This document shows positions 2-6,348 of a stretch of DNA of 6,348 nt, piece after piece. How positions within the stretch are numbered: the first letter of the stretch is position 1; each line of letters opens with the position of its first letter. Source of the DNA: Deltaproteobacteria bacterium (GTDB lineage Bacteria > Desulfobacterota > Desulfarculia > Adiutricales > Adiutricaceae); the NCBI GenBank assembly GCA_031279525.1, contig JAITIH010000162.1, forward strand, positions 1-6,348. The letters are read 5' to 3'. Both the position numbers and the translations under genes were made by a program. Under the pieces are notes generated by a model, which saw only the letters and a list, made by a program, of their open reading frames with translations, was not told the DNA's origin and did no database searches.

Positions 2-745
2 AACAACATCTACATCATCGACCTTCAAAAGACGGTCCAACTCTTCAAAACCGCCTACCAGTTCGTGGTGGACACGGTTTCCCAGGGCCGTAGCGTCCTT
101 TTCGTGGGCACGAAAAAGCAGGCTTCCGACGCCATTCAGGAAGAAGCCAACCGGGCCGGCATGTTTTTCATTAACTCCCGGTGGCTGGGCGGCACCCTGA
201 CCAACTTCGTGACCATCAAGAAAAGCATCGAGCGGCTCAAGAAGCTCGAGCAGATGAAGGCCGACAACTCCATCAAAAAATACTACAAAAAAGAGATCAT
301 CCAGTTGGAAAACCAGATGGTCAAGCTGCGCAAGAACCTTGGCGGCATCAAGGAAATGGATCGCCTCCCCGGGGCCATTTTCGTCATCGACCCCCGGCGC
401 GAGAAGATCGCCACCGCCGAGGCCCGACGCTTAAACATTCCAGTGGTGGCCGTGGTGGACACCAACTGCGACCCCGACGAGATCGATTACATCATCCCCG
501 GCAACGACGACGCTATCCGAGCCATTAAACTCATGGCCTCCAAGATGGCCGACGCCTGCCTTGAAGGCCGAGCCCGTTGGGAAGAGCTGGCTAGAGGCGG
601 CTCCGGAGCCCCGGATAAGGACGAGGAAGGCTCCCCGGACCTTCAAGCGGAGCCCGCCGCCGCGGCTTTCCCAGTAAGCCAGCCGGCCCCGACCTCGGCT
701 CCGCCGGCCGCCCCCGCCGCGCCCGTCGAGGGCCAGGCCAACTAG
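2..745 (+). CDS. rpsB: 30S ribosomal protein S2, 5'-truncated by window edge
   Basis: S2 is a small-subunit protein of the 30S ribosome, bound at the head-body junction late in assembly and needed for S1 association. The frame is open from base 2 ([11 protein letters not shown]...). By recalled comparison with E. coli S2 (HIINLEKT), roughly 35-40 N-terminal residues lie outside the window, so no start codon is visible; the GTG at 65 is an internal valine. Family signatures seen are [11 protein letters not shown] (about 98-130), [11 protein letters not shown] (176-208), the [13 protein letters not shown] segment (about 365-403) and [23 protein letters not shown] (about 458-529). After the conserved core, from about 595, the protein carries a low-complexity acidic then Ala/Pro-rich tail of about 50 residues ending in EGQAN, longer than the short acidic end of E. 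coli S2. rpsB followed by tsf is the classical order. Identity is secure. Confidence 0.97.
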
Positions 746-1254: not shown

Positions 1255-2181
1255 ATGGCGATCACCTCGCAAATGGTCAAAATATTGCGCGACAAAACCA
1301 ACGCCGGGATGATGGACTGTAAAAAAGCCCTCACCGAATGCGAAGGAGACATTGAAAAAGCCGTCGACTGGCTGCGCCAAAAAGGCTTGCTCACGGCCCG
1401 CAAAAGGTCAGGCCGAGCCACGAAGGAAGGCCTGGTCCTGGCCGCCGAAAGCCCGGACGGCCAAAAAGGGGCCTTGGTCGAGCTCAACACTGAGACCGAC
1501 TTCGTGGCCAAGATGGACTCTTTCCGGGAGCTGACCCAAAACGTGGCCAACTTCCTTTTGGAGGCCCCACAGGCCCCTAAAGACGTGGAGGAGCTTTTGG
1601 CTCATAAATGTCCCACTTGCGGCAAGCTCATAGGGGAATTGATCCAAGGGGCCGTGGGCACGACCGGCGAGAACATGAAGCTGCGCCGCTTCGCCGTCCA
1701 CTCGGCCCAAGGCGGCCTGGTCCACTCCTACATTCACATGAACGGCCGGCTCGGGGTCCTTATAAACCTTAAGGTCGAAAAGCCAGGGGCCGCGGCCGTG
1801 GAGCTGGCCCATAATCTGGCCATGCAGATCGCCGCCGCCAACCCCTTGGCCATTACGGTTAAAGACGTGCCCCCGGCCATTTTAGCCCGGGAGCGGGCCG
1901 TCTACGAGGCCAAAGCCGACGAGGAAGCCGAGGCCCGAATTCAGAAAAACCCTAAAAAACCCTTGGACAAAGCCTCCTTGGTGGCCAAGATAGTCGAGGG
2001 CCAGATCAAGAAGTTCTATTCCGAGGCGGTCTTAATGGAACAGCCCTACGTCAAGGAGCCGGCCAAATCCATCTCCCAGATCGTCAAAGAGGCCGCCCCC
2101 GCGGTCGGCCAGGCCGAAGTCGTTCAATTCGCCAGGTTCCAGCTGGGCGAGGAGCTGGAAGGCGAAAGCTCCGAAGGGTAG
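1255..2181 (+). CDS. tsf: Elongation factor Ts
   Basis: EF-Ts is the cytosolic guanine-nucleotide exchange factor that recycles EF-Tu from its GDP to its GTP form during translation elongation. The 308-residue product begins with the UBA-like helical domain (residues about 3-45, with [17 protein letters not shown]). The EF-Tu contact motif TDFVAK follows at 81-86. Two core subdomains are recognisable, one around [11 protein letters not shown] (138-147) and [13 protein letters not shown] (158-170), the other with [13 protein letters not shown] (186-198) and [21 protein letters not shown] (246-266), so this is the long EF-Ts type. It is somewhat longer than the 283 residues of E. coli. Oddities are a CPTCG pair (Cys119 and Cys122) in the first core subdomain and extra charged residues around 220-240. 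The start at 1255 rather than 1228 rests on the ribosome binding site and on homology. A terminator follows the stop codon. Confidence 0.97.
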
Positions 2182-2249: not shown

Positions 2250-2978
2250 ATGGAAAGCCGCGATTACCGCTACAAGACCGTTCTTTTGAAAATCTCCGGC
2301 GAGGCCCTCCAAGGGTCTTTGGGGTTTGGGCTCGACCCCGACACCGTGGAGGACATCGCCGCGCAGATCGCCGAGGTGGCCCGCGACGGGGTCCGCTTGG
2401 GCCTCGTCATCGGCGGGGGCAACATATTTCGGGGCCAGGCCTTAGCCGAGCGGGGTCTTAACCGGGTGACCGGCGACCACATGGGCATGCTGGCCACGGT
2501 CATTAACGCCCTGGCCATGCAGGACTCCCTAGAGCGTCAGGGCCTGGAGACCCGGGTCCAGAGCGCCATCACCATGGTGGAGTTCGCCGAGCTCTACATC
2601 CGGCGGCGGGCCATCCGCCACCTGGAAAAGGGGCGCGTGGTCATCTTCGCCGCCGGCACCGGCAACCCCTATCTGACCACGGACACGGCCGCCGTCTTGC
2701 GGGCCAACGAGATCGGGGCCGACGTCATCCTAAAGGCCACGCGGGTGGACGGCGTTTACGACCGCGACCCCCAGATCGACCCCACGGCCATCCGCTTTCA
2801 GGAAATTTCGTATTTAGAGGTCATTAACCGCCGGCTTAAGGTCATGGACGCCACGGCCATGTCTTTGGCCATGGAAAACGGGCTCGAGACCATCGTCTTC
2901 GACCTCCGGAAAAAAGGCAACATCAAGAAAACCATCATGGGCGAGCCGGTGGGGACCTTAGTCAAAATCGGCGACTAG
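2250..2978 (+). CDS. pyrH: UMP kinase (uridylate kinase)
   Basis: PyrH phosphorylates UMP to UDP with ATP in the cytosol, an essential step of pyrimidine nucleotide supply. It belongs to the amino-acid kinase family and forms hexamers that are typically activated by GTP and inhibited by UTP. The product has 242 residues, against 241 in E. coli. Visible motifs are the N-terminal KISGEAL (14-20), the glycine-rich GGGNIFRG (55-62), [10 protein letters not shown] (75-84) of the UMP site, the [11 protein letters not shown] segment (135-145), [13 protein letters not shown] (162-174), and a C-terminal GEPVGTLV (231-238). The start at 2250 follows the GGGAGG site and gives the usual family N-terminus. 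frr follows after 14 bp, so the two are probably co-transcribed. Nothing appears broken. Confidence 0.97.
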
Positions 2979-2992: not shown

Positions 2993-3550
2993 ATGCTTCA
3001 GGAAATATACGCGGACTTAAAAGGCCGCATGGAAAAGACCTTGACCGCCCTGGCTCGGGACTATCAGAAGATCCGAACGGGCCGAGCCACCCCGGCCCTT
3101 TTGGACGGTTTGGCGGCCAATTACTATGGGACCGCCACCCCCTTAAACCAGATGGCCTCCATCACCGTCCCCGAGGCCAGGCTGCTCTTGATTCAACCTT
3201 GGGATCCCACGGCCATCGGCGAGATCGAAAAGGTCATCTTAAAGTCCGAGCTTGGCCTCACCCCCCAAAACGACGGCAAGGTCATCCGGGTCAACGTGCC
3301 GCCCTTAAGCCAAGAAAGGCGCAAAGAGCTGACCAAGCTGGTTAAAAAGACGGCCGAGGAGGCTAAGGTGGCCTTGCGGGCCATCCGCCGGGAAGCCAAC
3401 GACCTGACCAAAGACTTAAAGAAGTCCAAAGACATAAGCGAAGACGAGCAGGCCAAGGCCGAGACGCAGATCCAAAAGATCACCGACGAGTACGTGGCCA
3501 AAGCCGACCAGGCCGCCGCGGCCAAGGAAAAGGAAATCTTAGAGTTCTGA
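2993..3550 (+). CDS. frr: Ribosome recycling factor
   Basis: RRF works with EF-G in the cytosol to split post-termination ribosomes from mRNA so that subunits can be reused. At 185 residues it has exactly the length of E. coli RRF. The three-helix-bundle domain is marked by YQKIRTGRATPALLDG (24-39) and by RRKELTKLVKK and AIRREANDLTKDLKK (109-144), including the conserved Arg132. The small beta domain spans roughly residues 40-105 (NYYGTATPLNQMASITV, then IRVNVPPLSQERR). ISEDE (148-152) and the long final helix match the family C-terminus. It closes the conserved translation block: a strong terminator starts three bases after its stop, so the uppS-cdsA-dxr genes that often follow frr elsewhere are not linked here. 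Confidence 0.98.
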   Translation: MLQEIYADLKGRMEKTLTALARDYQKIRTGRATPALLDGLAANYYGTATPLNQMASITVPEARLLLIQPWDPTAIGEIEKVILKSELGLTPQNDGKVIRVNVPPLSQERRKELTKLVKKTAEEAKVALRAIRREANDLTKDLKKSKDISEDEQAKAETQIQKITDEYVAKADQAAAAKEKEILEF

Positions 3551-3552
3551 TA

Positions 3553-3602
3553 GGCCAAAAAAAAGCTCTGGCCCGGCTCGTTTTCGGGGGCCTTTTTTGG
3601 CC
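3553..3602 (+). terminator. Terminator after frr, symmetric A-tract/T-tract hairpin
   Basis: GGCC followed by an A-run (3553-3562) mirrors six T followed by GGCC (3593-3602), giving a perfect 10-bp outer arm. Inside it, GGCCC (3570-3574) pairs with GGGCC (3588-3592) immediately before the T6 tract, which is the standard intrinsic terminator layout on the + strand. The matching A-tract means the same structure could also stop reverse-strand transcription, although no reverse gene is present here. It begins three bases after the frr stop codon. Confidence 0.85.
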
Positions 3603-3723
3603 CTAAGCTTTGGGTCCATTTCTAGCCCTAAGTTTGGGGGCCTTCTAGTCCTAAGCTTTGGGTCCTTCTAGTCCTAAGCTTTGGGTCCTTTTCTAGCCTT
3701 AGAGTTTTTAGGTCCTTTTTTTT
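3599..3723. repeat. Five degenerate copies of a ~23-bp CTAG/CCTAAGCTTTGGG repeat
   Basis: Consecutive units are 3599-3621, 3622-3644, 3645-3667, 3668-3692 and 3693-3723 (23, 23, 23, 25 and 31 bp, the last two stretched by T runs). Units two to five start with CTAG. Units one, three and four share CCTAAGCTTTGGGTCC, units three and four being identical over 23 bases, and units two and five are degenerate. Each good unit has an imperfect dyad centred on AAGCTT (CCC.AAGCTT.GGG). The array begins inside the frr terminator's closing GGCC. It does not look coding, and its role is unknown. Confidence 0.85.
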
Positions 3724-3984: not shown

Positions 3985-6306
3985 ATGCGGTTTAAACGAC
4001 AAGGCTTGACCCCTAAAAGGATTATCTTAGCCTACGTTTTGGCCATGATCTTGGTTTTAGGCCACGAGGCCAGTCGCCTGGCCGACTGGCTGGCCGACCT
4101 GGGCGGCTCCGAGGACGGGACGGGGCGGGCCCTGGCTTTAAACCTCGCCGCCGACCTAAAACACGGAGCCCAAGAGACGGGGATAGTCGCCCTTAACCAG
4201 GCCGAGGAGCGCCTAGCCCGGCGCCTGACCCCCACCTTGGAAGTGGGGGCGGTGGCGGCCAAGCCCAAGATGAAACCCGTCTTAGCCCCTTACGGCCCCG
4301 CTAACCTCGCCGCCGACCCGGCCCAAAAGGCCGCCTACGTCGGCCCTGGCCAAATGGCCAACCAGGCCAACCAGGCCAACCAGGCCATCCAGGCCATCCC
4401 AGCCGGTTACGCCGACTCGGCCGGCCCGGCCGATCCCGCGGAACTCCCGGCCCCCAAAGATCCCGCGACCCCGGCCGGGGCCGCCCAAAGCGCCCTTTTG
4501 GAAATCCCCTTAGCCGCGGAGCCGGCTAAACCCGTTTACCATAGCGTCCTTTTGACCGGCGACTCCATGATGCTGGAGGGCTTAGGGCCCCCTTTACAGA
4601 AAATGTTGGCCAAGATGGAGGGCCTTTCGGTCAGCCGGGCCGGCAAGTACGCCACTGGCTTGTGCCGGCTGGACGTTTTCGACTGGATTAAGTATTTTGA
4701 GGAGCTTTTAGCCGAGAAAGACCCGGATCTAGTGGCCATATCCATTGGGGCCAACGACACCCAGGACATCGTCGATCACGACGGCCGCCGCCATCGCGTG
4801 GCCACCGAGAGCTGGGGGGCGATCTACGGCCAAAGGGTGGCCGAGATATTGCGGCTGGCCGCCGAAAAGCCAGCCCAGGTGATCTGGGTAGGCCTCCCCA
4901 TCATGGGCCAGGAGCCTTACAACGCCCGGGCCGCGGCCATTAACGAGGTGGCCGCGGCGGCTTGCCAAAAAGCCGACAACTGCCGCTTTTTCGACGCCTG
5001 GGAGATCCTGGCCGAGGAAGGCCAGTTCGCGACCTTCCTTAAGCTGGGCGACAAAAACCAAAGGGTCCGGGCCAAGGACAAGATCCACCTCACCGAGGCC
5101 GGCGGCCGCGTCATGGCCGAGGCCTTCTTAACCTTCGCCCAGTCCTTCGCCGTTTTGGGCCATCCGCCTAAAGACGCGGCCACCGAATCCGCCATCCAGT
5201 CGGCTAGCGTCGTCGCCGGCCCCGCCGAGGCCCGGGCCATCATAGACGACCCGGCCTTAGCCGCCAAAGCCACGGCCGCGACCCCGGCCCAGGCCATTTT
5301 CCCGCCAAAAAACCCCCCCGACCCCGCGGCTAGCGAGCCCGCCCTAAGCCAGAGCCCGGCGGCAAGCGACTCCGCCCTAAGCCAGATCCCGGCGGCTACC
5401 GACTCCGCCCTAAGCCAGAGCCCGGCGGCTAACGAGCCCGCCCTAAGCCTGAGCCCGGCGGCAAGCGAGCCCGCCCCTAAGGCCGGCTCGCCGGAGCCAG
5501 AGGGGGCGGCGGCCAGCCCCAAAGGCGGCCAGGCCCCCCTCGCCGCCCTAGCCGAGGCCTCCTTTAAGTCGAAGGCCCTAGGCCGGGAGGTTAAGTACCT
5601 GGTTTTCGCGCCCAAAGGCCAAGGGCCGTTCCCGACCGTCTTTCTCCTGCCTGGGGTGGGCGAAAACTACAAGGTCTGGGACGAGCGCTTTGGGGCCGAT
5701 CTCTTTAACGAGGCCGAAAGGCTAGGCCTTGGGCTCATCATGATCGACTCCGGAGACGACGGCTGGTACCTCGACAGCCCCATTAAGCCCGCCTCCAAGC
5801 ACGAGACCCACTTTTTTCAGGAGCTTTTGCCCCACGCCCTGACCAAGTTTCCCTTAGACCCGGACCGCCTGGCTTTATTGGGCGTCTCCATGGGCGGCCA
5901 CGGGGCCTTGGGCTTCGCCCTGGCCCAGCCGGGCCGCTTTAAGGCCGTCTCGGCCTTATCGGCCGTCCTCGATCTGACCAGCCACGGCGACGACCGGGCC
6001 ATTAACCGCTTTTTGGGCTTAAAGCCGCTCTTAGGGGCCTATCCCAACCGGGCCGACCTCTGGCGGGCGGCCTCGGTATACTGGCGCACTCGAAGCCAAC
6101 CCGAGGCCCTGAGCCAGACGACCGTTTACCTGACGGTGGGCCGCTCCGACGCCCTGGCCTTGGCCGACAACCGCCAGTACAGCCGCCTTTTAACGGAGCT
6201 GGAGATCCCCCACCTCTACCGGGAGGACTCCGGCGGCCACGATTGGGGCCTGTGGACCCGGGAACTGCCCGATCACCTAGCCTTCCTGGCCGATAGGCTA
6301 AAATAA
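3985..6306 (+). CDS. Membrane-anchored DUF459-like SGNH hydrolase fused to an esterase-D-like domain
   Basis: The protein has 773 residues. A basic N-terminus (K4, R5, K11, R12) and a hydrophobic segment (about 13-26) suggest an uncleaved signal anchor that places the rest in the periplasm. A low-complexity Ala/Pro-rich spacer (about 85-185) follows and includes an NQA repeat. Domain 1 (about 186-392) is SGNH-type and resembles DUF459: LLTGDSMM with Ser194, SIGANDTQ with Asn257, and DKIHLT with Asp365 and His368 as the DxxH pair. A second linker (about 393-525) carries an 11-residue repeat. Domain 2 (about 526-773) resembles esterase D: GVSMGG with nucleophile Ser635, a likely acid at Asp722, and GGHDWGLW with His752. 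Both active sites look complete. DUF459-type and other SGNH proteins often handle acetyl groups on envelope polysaccharides, so removal or transfer of acyl groups is a reasonable inference; the substrate is unknown. It is separated from frr by a terminator and is probably transcribed independently. Confidence 0.85.
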   Translation: MRFKRQGLTPKRIILAYVLAMILVLGHEASRLADWLADLGGSEDGTGRALALNLAADLKHGAQETGIVALNQAEERLARRLTPTLEVGAVAAKPKMKPVLAPYGPANLAADPAQKAAYVGPGQMANQANQANQAIQAIPAGYADSAGPADPAELPAPKDPATPAGAAQSALLEIPLAAEPAKPVYHSVLLTGDSMMLEGLGPPLQKMLAKMEGLSVSRAGKYATGLCRLDVFDWIKYFEELLAEKDPDLVAISIGANDTQDIVDHDGRRHRVATESWGAIYGQRVAEILRLAAEKPAQVIWVGLPIMGQEPYNARAAAINEVAAAACQKADNCRFFDAWEILAEEGQFATFLKLGDKNQRVRAKDKIHLTEAGGRVMAEAFLTFAQSFAVLGHPPKDAATESAIQSASVVAGPAEARAIIDDPALAAKATAATPAQAIFPPKNPPDPAASEPALSQSPAASDSALSQIPAATDSALSQSPAANEPALSLSPAASEPAPKAGSPEPEGAAASPKGGQAPLAALAEASFKSKALGREVKYLVFAPKGQGPFPTVFLLPGVGENYKVWDERFGADLFNEAERLGLGLIMIDSGDDGWYLDSPIKPASKHETHFFQELLPHALTKFPLDPDRLALLGVSMGGHGALGFALAQPGRFKAVSALSAVLDLTSHGDDRAINRFLGLKPLLGAYPNRADLWRAASVYWRTRSQPEALSQTTVYLTVGRSDALALADNRQYSRLLTELEIPHLYREDSGGHDWGLWTRELPDHLAFLADRLK
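4360..4395 (+). repeat. 9-bp in-frame tandem repeat encoding NQA/IQA
   Basis: AACCAGGCC occurs three times (4360-4386) and is followed by the variant ATCCAGGCC (4387-4395), encoding NQA-NQA-NQA-IQA in the first linker of the hydrolase fusion. The period is a multiple of three, so gain or loss of a unit would change spacer length without breaking the frame. Confidence 0.85.
5326..5478 (+). repeat. 33-bp in-frame tandem repeat encoding an 11-residue linker unit
   Basis: Residues 448-491 are four 11-residue units: AASEPALSQSP, AASDSALSQIP, AATDSALSQSP and AANEPALSLSP. A partial fifth, AASEPAP, follows (492-498). DNA units start at 5326, 5359, 5392, 5425 and 5458. The repeat separates the SGNH and esterase domains and looks like a flexible, extended spacer. 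Copies differ at a few bases each, so the array is not freshly duplicated. Confidence 0.92.
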
Positions 6307-6313
6307 CCCGCCC

Positions 6314-6348
6314 ATGAAAAGCCTCGCCATCGTGGGGGTCTACTTCCG
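6314..6348 (+). CDS. Start of a downstream gene, cut by window edge
   Basis: An ATG lies seven bases after the stop of the hydrolase fusion and opens MKSLAIVGVYF before the window ends. The basic second residue and hydrophobic continuation suggest a signal peptide or membrane segment. The tight spacing suggests co-transcription with the fusion gene. No clear Shine-Dalgarno sequence precedes it, and eleven residues are too few to name a family. In DUF459 neighbourhoods a membrane acyltransferase or another envelope protein would not be surprising, but nothing here shows that. Confidence 0.45.
   Translation, partial: MKSLAIVGVYF

Follow-up and report, generated by a model that had tools for sequence, protein, structure and literature searches.

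Layout and distribution of a two-domain gene

The window analyzed here, a 6,348-bp stretch of DNA from a Deltaproteobacteria bacterium (the entire contig JAITIH010000162.1), carries part of rpsB, then tsf, pyrH and frr, and downstream of these a gene whose product joins a PatB-like SGNH domain to an alpha/beta-hydrolase esterase domain; one further gene begins just before the contig ends (Table 1). The fusion gene (3985-6306, plus strand) is a single open frame encoding 773 aa. It starts with ATG, a GGAGG motif lies shortly 5′ of the start, and the N-terminus of the protein is conserved among aligned relatives. Pfam analysis identified DUF459 (PF04311) at residues 188-382 (E 2.4e-56; 190.7 bits against a cut-off of 27.2) and Esterase (PF00756) at residues 529-767 (E 7.6e-22; 78.7 bits against a cut-off of 22). 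In the AlphaFold2 model, both domains had predicted local distance difference test (pLDDT) scores mostly above 90, with lowest ten-residue means of 88-90, and the linker stretches 83-177 and 399-518, mostly below 50, are predicted to be disordered. Helix 10-27 is the predicted membrane anchor.

Table 1. Features of the window, with the catalytic codons of the fusion gene
Feature	Position	Strand	Basis or detail
rpsB (partial)	2-745	+	Pfam Ribosomal_S2
tsf	1255-2181	+	Pfam EF_TS
pyrH	2250-2978	+	Pfam AA_kinase
frr	2993-3550	+	Pfam RRF
patB-like/esterase fusion gene, 773 aa	3985..6306	+	open frame, conserved N-terminus, Pfam DUF459 + Esterase
predicted N-terminal membrane region: helices 10-27 (anchor), 29-42, 47-65, 67-81	4012..4227	+	AlphaFold2
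Pro/Ala-rich linker 1, residues 82-186, low model confidence	4228..4542	+	pLDDT <50 over most
DUF459/PatB-type SGNH domain	4546..5130	+	Ser194 4564-4566, Asp365 5077-5079, His368 5086-5088
Pro/Ala-rich linker 2, residues 387-520	5143..5544	+	pLDDT; tandem repeat inside
alpha/beta-hydrolase esterase domain (PF00756)	5569..6285	+	Ser635 5887-5889, Asp722 6148-6150, His752 6238-6240
next gene start, probably first of two ABC exporters	6314..6348	+	cut by contig end

The SGNH motifs were located as GDS (with Ser194), GAND (255-258) and DKIH (365-368), and the esterase motifs as GVSMGG (633-638, with Ser635) and GGHDW (750-754). Conservation was assessed in an alignment, A1, of 48 of the 52 relatives found, the fusion protein included (P0017 and P0050-P0052 were omitted). 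Asp365 and His368 are present in 48/48 rows and Ser194 in all 44 rows that hold the residue, the four gapped rows being gene calls that start downstream of it; for the esterase triad, Asp722 and His752 are present in 48/48 rows and Ser635 in 47/48. The linkers vary much more, linker 1 spanning 0-195 aa (median 91.5, short gene calls counted) and linker 2 spanning 8-168 aa (median 84.5) across the same rows. Within linker 2 of the fusion protein, a 33-bp tandem repeat of 4.8 copies (5322-5481) encodes an 11-residue Pro/Ala/Ser-rich repeat.

A sequence-only reading of this DNA had proposed that an SGNH domain and an alpha/beta-hydrolase domain, with nucleophiles Ser194 and Ser635, share one frame, had suggested DUF459 and Esterase as their families together with a structure prediction, and knew of no named protein with this layout. 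The Pfam matches place both halves in those families, the motifs and serines lie where it had put them in near-invariant triads, and the model shows two confident domains joined by low-confidence linkers. The layout also appears to be unusual: a protein search that scored the 7992 candidates sharing most words returned 49 two-domain proteins, the fusion protein itself included, so that the arrangement is not widespread in what was searched. Those bearing an organism name all came from Deltaproteobacteria genome bins or Candidatus Adiutrix. Moreover, P0033 ("Candidatus Adiutrix sp.") and the copy of genome G005 (genus g2) share 49% identity across 694 aa, and, as judged from sequence, the family carrying the fusion appears to include Candidatus Adiutrix and is thus probably Adiutricaceae.

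Within this family the fusion gene was found in 34 of 37 genomes, including 12/12 of those at least 90% complete; G006, G010 and G032 are the three genomes in which it was not found. Of the 30 loci L002-L031, 27 encode both domains in a single frame, as do G036, G003 and G001, and in G033 the two domains lie inside one 588-aa frame. The two halves are on separate contigs in G034, the second half running from base 8. In G007 and G008, the frame leaves the contig just past what by eye is the start of the esterase, and tblastn gave no significant esterase match at these two fusion loci. No intact ortholog was shown to be without the esterase among the family genomes examined, and a single gene-call or assembly artefact was rejected as an explanation because the one-frame fusion recurs across many loci of the family. 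A draw of 297 genomes from the phylum contained seven with strong DUF459 matches (E <1e-40), namely four family members plus G050, G249 and G310, and tblastn found no esterase in the loci of the 11 strong DUF459 domains of the latter three. DUF459 paralogs with several copies of the domain and no visible esterase occur in G036 (C179) and G026 (C256). In G028 and G029, a degenerate DUF459 copy precedes an intact copy adjoining the esterase. These tandem arrangements are those of L082:7165-10293, L078:5517-8186, L074 and L081.

The SGNH half and its putative PatA partner

Among PDB entries, PatB was the nearest relative of the SGNH half (7tjb and 8tlb; ∼25-28% identity in structure alignments), and 201/214 residues of 8tlb aligned at 1.7 A. 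The resemblance may extend to the N-terminal region. According to PMC12148441, C. jejuni PatB comprises an N-terminal transmembrane helix, two amphipathic helices and a disordered linker, and AlphaFold2 predicts the same order in the fusion protein (helices 10-27/29-42, 47-65 and 67-81, then the low-confidence residues 83-177). The block III Asn is also kept (N257, 47/48 rows of A1). The hydrophobic wall behind the serine, made of Leu/Ile in NgPatB (PMC12148441), retains Ile367 in 47/48 rows and has Tyr312 in 48/48 instead of Leu. PatB sensu stricto is further described as having two wing-like beta-hairpins (PMC12148441); the model contains short strands near 261-270 as well as strands 351-354/357-360.

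A PatB-type enzyme would be expected to work with a PatA-type membrane-bound O-acyltransferase (MBOAT), and 31/37 family genomes encode an MBOAT of some kind. From 20 loci fetched initially the gene was recovered in 18, giving 19 copies, which comprised 14 "core" copies and five others. Three of the others (two in L057, one in L067) adjoin AlgX genes that pass the Pfam threshold, one (L059) lies beside a sub-threshold AlgX, and the neighbor of the last (L049) matches no Pfam family. Of the core copies, 12/14 lie near SurA-like, YebC or RuvC genes, as judged from gene clusters and, for the L052 set, from Pfam matches. A phylogeny of 57 MBOATs placed the 14 core copies in one group with precisely the three MBOATs found next to DUF459 genes (98/96) and left the other 40 outside; the G050 branch was long (2.16). 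Loci L061 and L063, absent from the tree, were placed by BLAST together with 16 others. This assigned a core-type MBOAT to 15 more genomes, the closest non-core class of each of these copies being the DUF459-adjacent MBOATs, and classed those of G006, G029 C99 and G024 C460 as AlgX-type. Overall, 29/37 family genomes have a core PatA-clade MBOAT, among them 28 of the 34 fusion genomes, and AlgX-type partners occur in 5/37. We refer to the core MBOATs as orphan in the sense of the two partner families sought, DUF459 and AlgX.

Taken together, these data indicate that the SGNH half very probably acts as a PatB-type O-acetyltransferase, a role well supported by its domain, its layout and its putative PatA-clade MBOAT partner; peptidoglycan is probably the polymer acted on. 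The sequence-only reading had offered two options for the domain pair, namely that one domain transfers acyl groups and the other removes them, or that both deacylate. The former is favored here. The latter is less likely, since the SGNH half is nearest to PatB and most fusion genomes hold an orphan PatA-clade MBOAT; that the same acetyl groups are added and removed is our inference.

The esterase half and competing interpretations

By both sequence and fold, the nearest matches of the esterase half are feruloyl esterases, S-formylglutathione hydrolases and small esterases, and Antigen 85 ranks lower; the VIA-align and Foldseek match lists consist mostly of esterase-domain matches and are uninformative on other folds. 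It scored 50.8 bits against the S-formylglutathione hydrolase model TIGR02821 (cut-off 281.7) and also fell below the NCBIfam enterochelin esterase cut-off. Because its best stand-alone relatives are only ∼28-35% identical among the 120 hits listed, the donor of the esterase domain cannot be named.

Ape1 (a PF22753 N-terminal domain plus an SGNH esterase) was found in 0/37 family genomes, and Pfam gave no Ape1 match within the fusion protein; G050, a relative with a patA-patB-ape1 cluster, served as the positive control for the search. In C. jejuni without ape1, O-acetyl groups accumulate (35.6% vs 12.5%; PMC5077204), so a writer may well need an eraser. The fused esterase would be the natural candidate, and the missing Ape1 points to it as a replacement, suggestively only. 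We consider the chances evenly balanced that the esterase half erases O-acetyl groups from the wall.

The following scheme is proposed. In C. jejuni, PatA loads acetyl onto the tyrosine of a C-terminal FXYXXF tail, from which PatB moves it to peptidoglycan (PMC12148441). By analogy, the orphan PatA-type MBOAT would use acetyl-CoA to acetylate the tyrosine in its FIYFQ[YF] tail, a sequence in which all 26 core MBOATs with a visible end terminate. The helix-anchored fusion protein, going by its domain, layout and putative partner, would dock on PatA, where Ser194 would accept the acetyl group and hand it to peptidoglycan. In the least certain step, the esterase, held on a long flexible linker, would cut O-acetyl esters of the wall through Ser635-Asp722-His752 and so replace Ape1. 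It is somewhat more probable than an even chance that PatA and PatB form a split cell-wall O-acetylation system here, to which the fusion contributes the PatB-type half plus an esterase that deacetylates the same polymer. The stricter version, a self-contained writer-eraser on one tethered chain with an unrelated esterase in the place of Ape1 and conserved across the whole family, stands at about an even chance.

Several observations weigh against this interpretation. With the NCBIfam PatB equivalog NF045704, the fusion protein reached 84.3 bits, far short of the 580 required; the PatB of G050, within an intact patA-patB-ape1 cluster, likewise fell below this cut-off (278.5 bits). In PatB sensu stricto, the block II Gly, an oxyanion-hole residue, is replaced by Ser or Asn (PMC12148441), and the fusion protein has Ala223 there; across the 48 rows of A1, the position is Gly in 24, Ala in 13 and Ser in 11. 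In the DUF459 tree, the fused domains clustered with their own paralogs (81/79) and took no definite position among the other DUF459 domains, so the tree argues neither for nor against pairing with PatA. An FXYXX[FY]-like end is present in 56/57 MBOATs of the tree; the tail was accordingly rejected as proof of PatA identity, being too general, and it is the MBOAT tree that carries the PatA argument. Six of the 34 fusion genomes have no core MBOAT that we could find (G000, G016, G022, G023, G033 and G036). The source genome, G000, is 64% complete, G016 is 96% complete, and both MBOATs of G036 adjoin AlgX genes. Conversely, G010 has a core MBOAT and no fusion, and G006 and G032 have neither. The fusion gene does not lie beside patA and instead adjoins ABC exporter or lipid/polyketide synthase genes; in G002, the fusion and core MBOAT genes are ∼0.66 Mb apart. 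As for the eraser, G249 and G310 have patA-patB yet no Ape1_N match, so absence of Ape1 alone does not demand a substitute. Finally, P0008, from the same-genus relative G020, has GLGMGG in place of GxSMGG, with Gly at the esterase nucleophile, so the esterase activity may be dispensable in places; this residue (locus L086) reflects either natural loss of the nucleophile or a sequencing error.

The gene neighborhood bears on the first of three alternatives, in which the esterase acts on another envelope ester, such as an exported lipid or glycolipid or a synthase product, and nothing beyond the tether links the two domains. The fusion gene was present in 18 of 20 loci examined, with neighbor families identified on one locus of each kind. 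ATP-binding cassette (ABC) exporter genes adjoin it in 13 of the 18 (as a visible pair in 10), a Pfa/polyketide synthase (PKS)-like synthase and an OleD-like reductase in four, all of genus g2, and in one the contig ends. In the window, the next gene opens MKSLAIVGVYF, which by eye resembles the start of the corresponding downstream gene in L033 and L036. These neighbors speak for an exported lipid, as does the breadth of CE1-like folds, whose members transfer or hydrolyze a wide variety of acyl chains. The type of neighbor, however, varies between genera while the fusion persists. Furthermore, in many loci the fusion follows pyrH-frr-type genes, with an rpsB-tsf-pyrH-frr order similar to that of the window 5′ of it in L034-L036, so the neighbors may reflect position rather than function. 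On balance, we regard action on another ester as unlikely.

Other features of these neighborhoods were also recorded. The gaps after rpsB and frr (783-944 and 3587-3698) are filled by short tandem repeats, 7-bp TTGGCCT-like and 23-bp CCTAAGCTTTGGGTCCTTCTAGT. The Pfa/PKS-like synthase of G002 (L068:10594-17616) ends in two XRE-type helix-turn-helix domains, which is odd for a lipid synthase. G027 has two fusion-ABC-ABC clusters (L075 C120 and L076 C34), each with an frr-type gene upstream, and may therefore be a mixed genome bin.

A second alternative, that the C-terminal domain is another acyltransferase resembling Antigen 85 and that two kinds of acyl group are added to the envelope, is quite improbable, because its best sequence and fold matches are hydrolases and its named stand-alone relatives are labelled S-formylglutathione hydrolase. 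Equally doubtful is a proofreader or idle-cycle brake that removes misloaded acyl groups from the PatA tyrosine, Ser194 or the product by hydrolysis: the esterase does sit on the transferase's own chain via a predicted flexible linker, but no PatB system is known to require such an editor.

Relation to known O-acetylation systems

Searches of open-access papers turned up none that describes a PatB joined to an esterase. In the Gram-negative systems described in PMC12148441, PatB and Ape1 are separate proteins encoded in one three-gene operon. If the interpretation favored here is correct, a single chain would combine a PatB-type writer with a non-homologous eraser, patA being encoded elsewhere, and how far the wall is acetylated, a level that controls its own lytic enzymes, would be determined inside one molecule. 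Inactivating Ser194 or Ser635 singly would then split writing from erasing.

A separate observation concerns how PatB reaches its substrate. Its action on the cross-linked wall has been doubted, since PatB is without wall-binding domains (PMC12148441). In G249 (L116:7737-10217) and G310 (L117:7767-9986), a DUF459 domain encoded next to a PatA-clade MBOAT precedes seven and six LysM stretches, respectively, and such LysM-DUF459 proteins beside patA bear on that open question.

The closest known counterpart is PatB (DUF459, PF04311; PDB 7tjb and 8tlb), with which the fusion protein shares the SGNH domain, its triad, the predicted N-terminal helices and disordered linker and, in most genomes, a PatA-clade MBOAT. 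It differs from PatB in the extra C-terminal esterase, the gene's location away from patA, the Ala/Gly/Ser at block II and a score far below the NCBIfam cut-off. Ape1 (PF22753 + GDSL_2) has the job proposed for the fused esterase, namely removal of O-acetyl groups from peptidoglycan, but is a separate SGNH protein, whereas the eraser candidate here has an alpha/beta-hydrolase fold and is joined to the writer. Of the CE1-like esterases (PF00756), the structures of feruloyl esterase BT_4077 and S-formylglutathione hydrolase are ∼24-27% identical to the fused esterase; unlike the fusion, the matched solved structures carry no SGNH domain. OatA, an AT3-SGNH fusion, likewise places two parts of O-acetylation on one membrane-bound chain (PMC12148441). 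However, OatA combines a loader with a writer, whereas the present fusion would combine a writer with a likely eraser.
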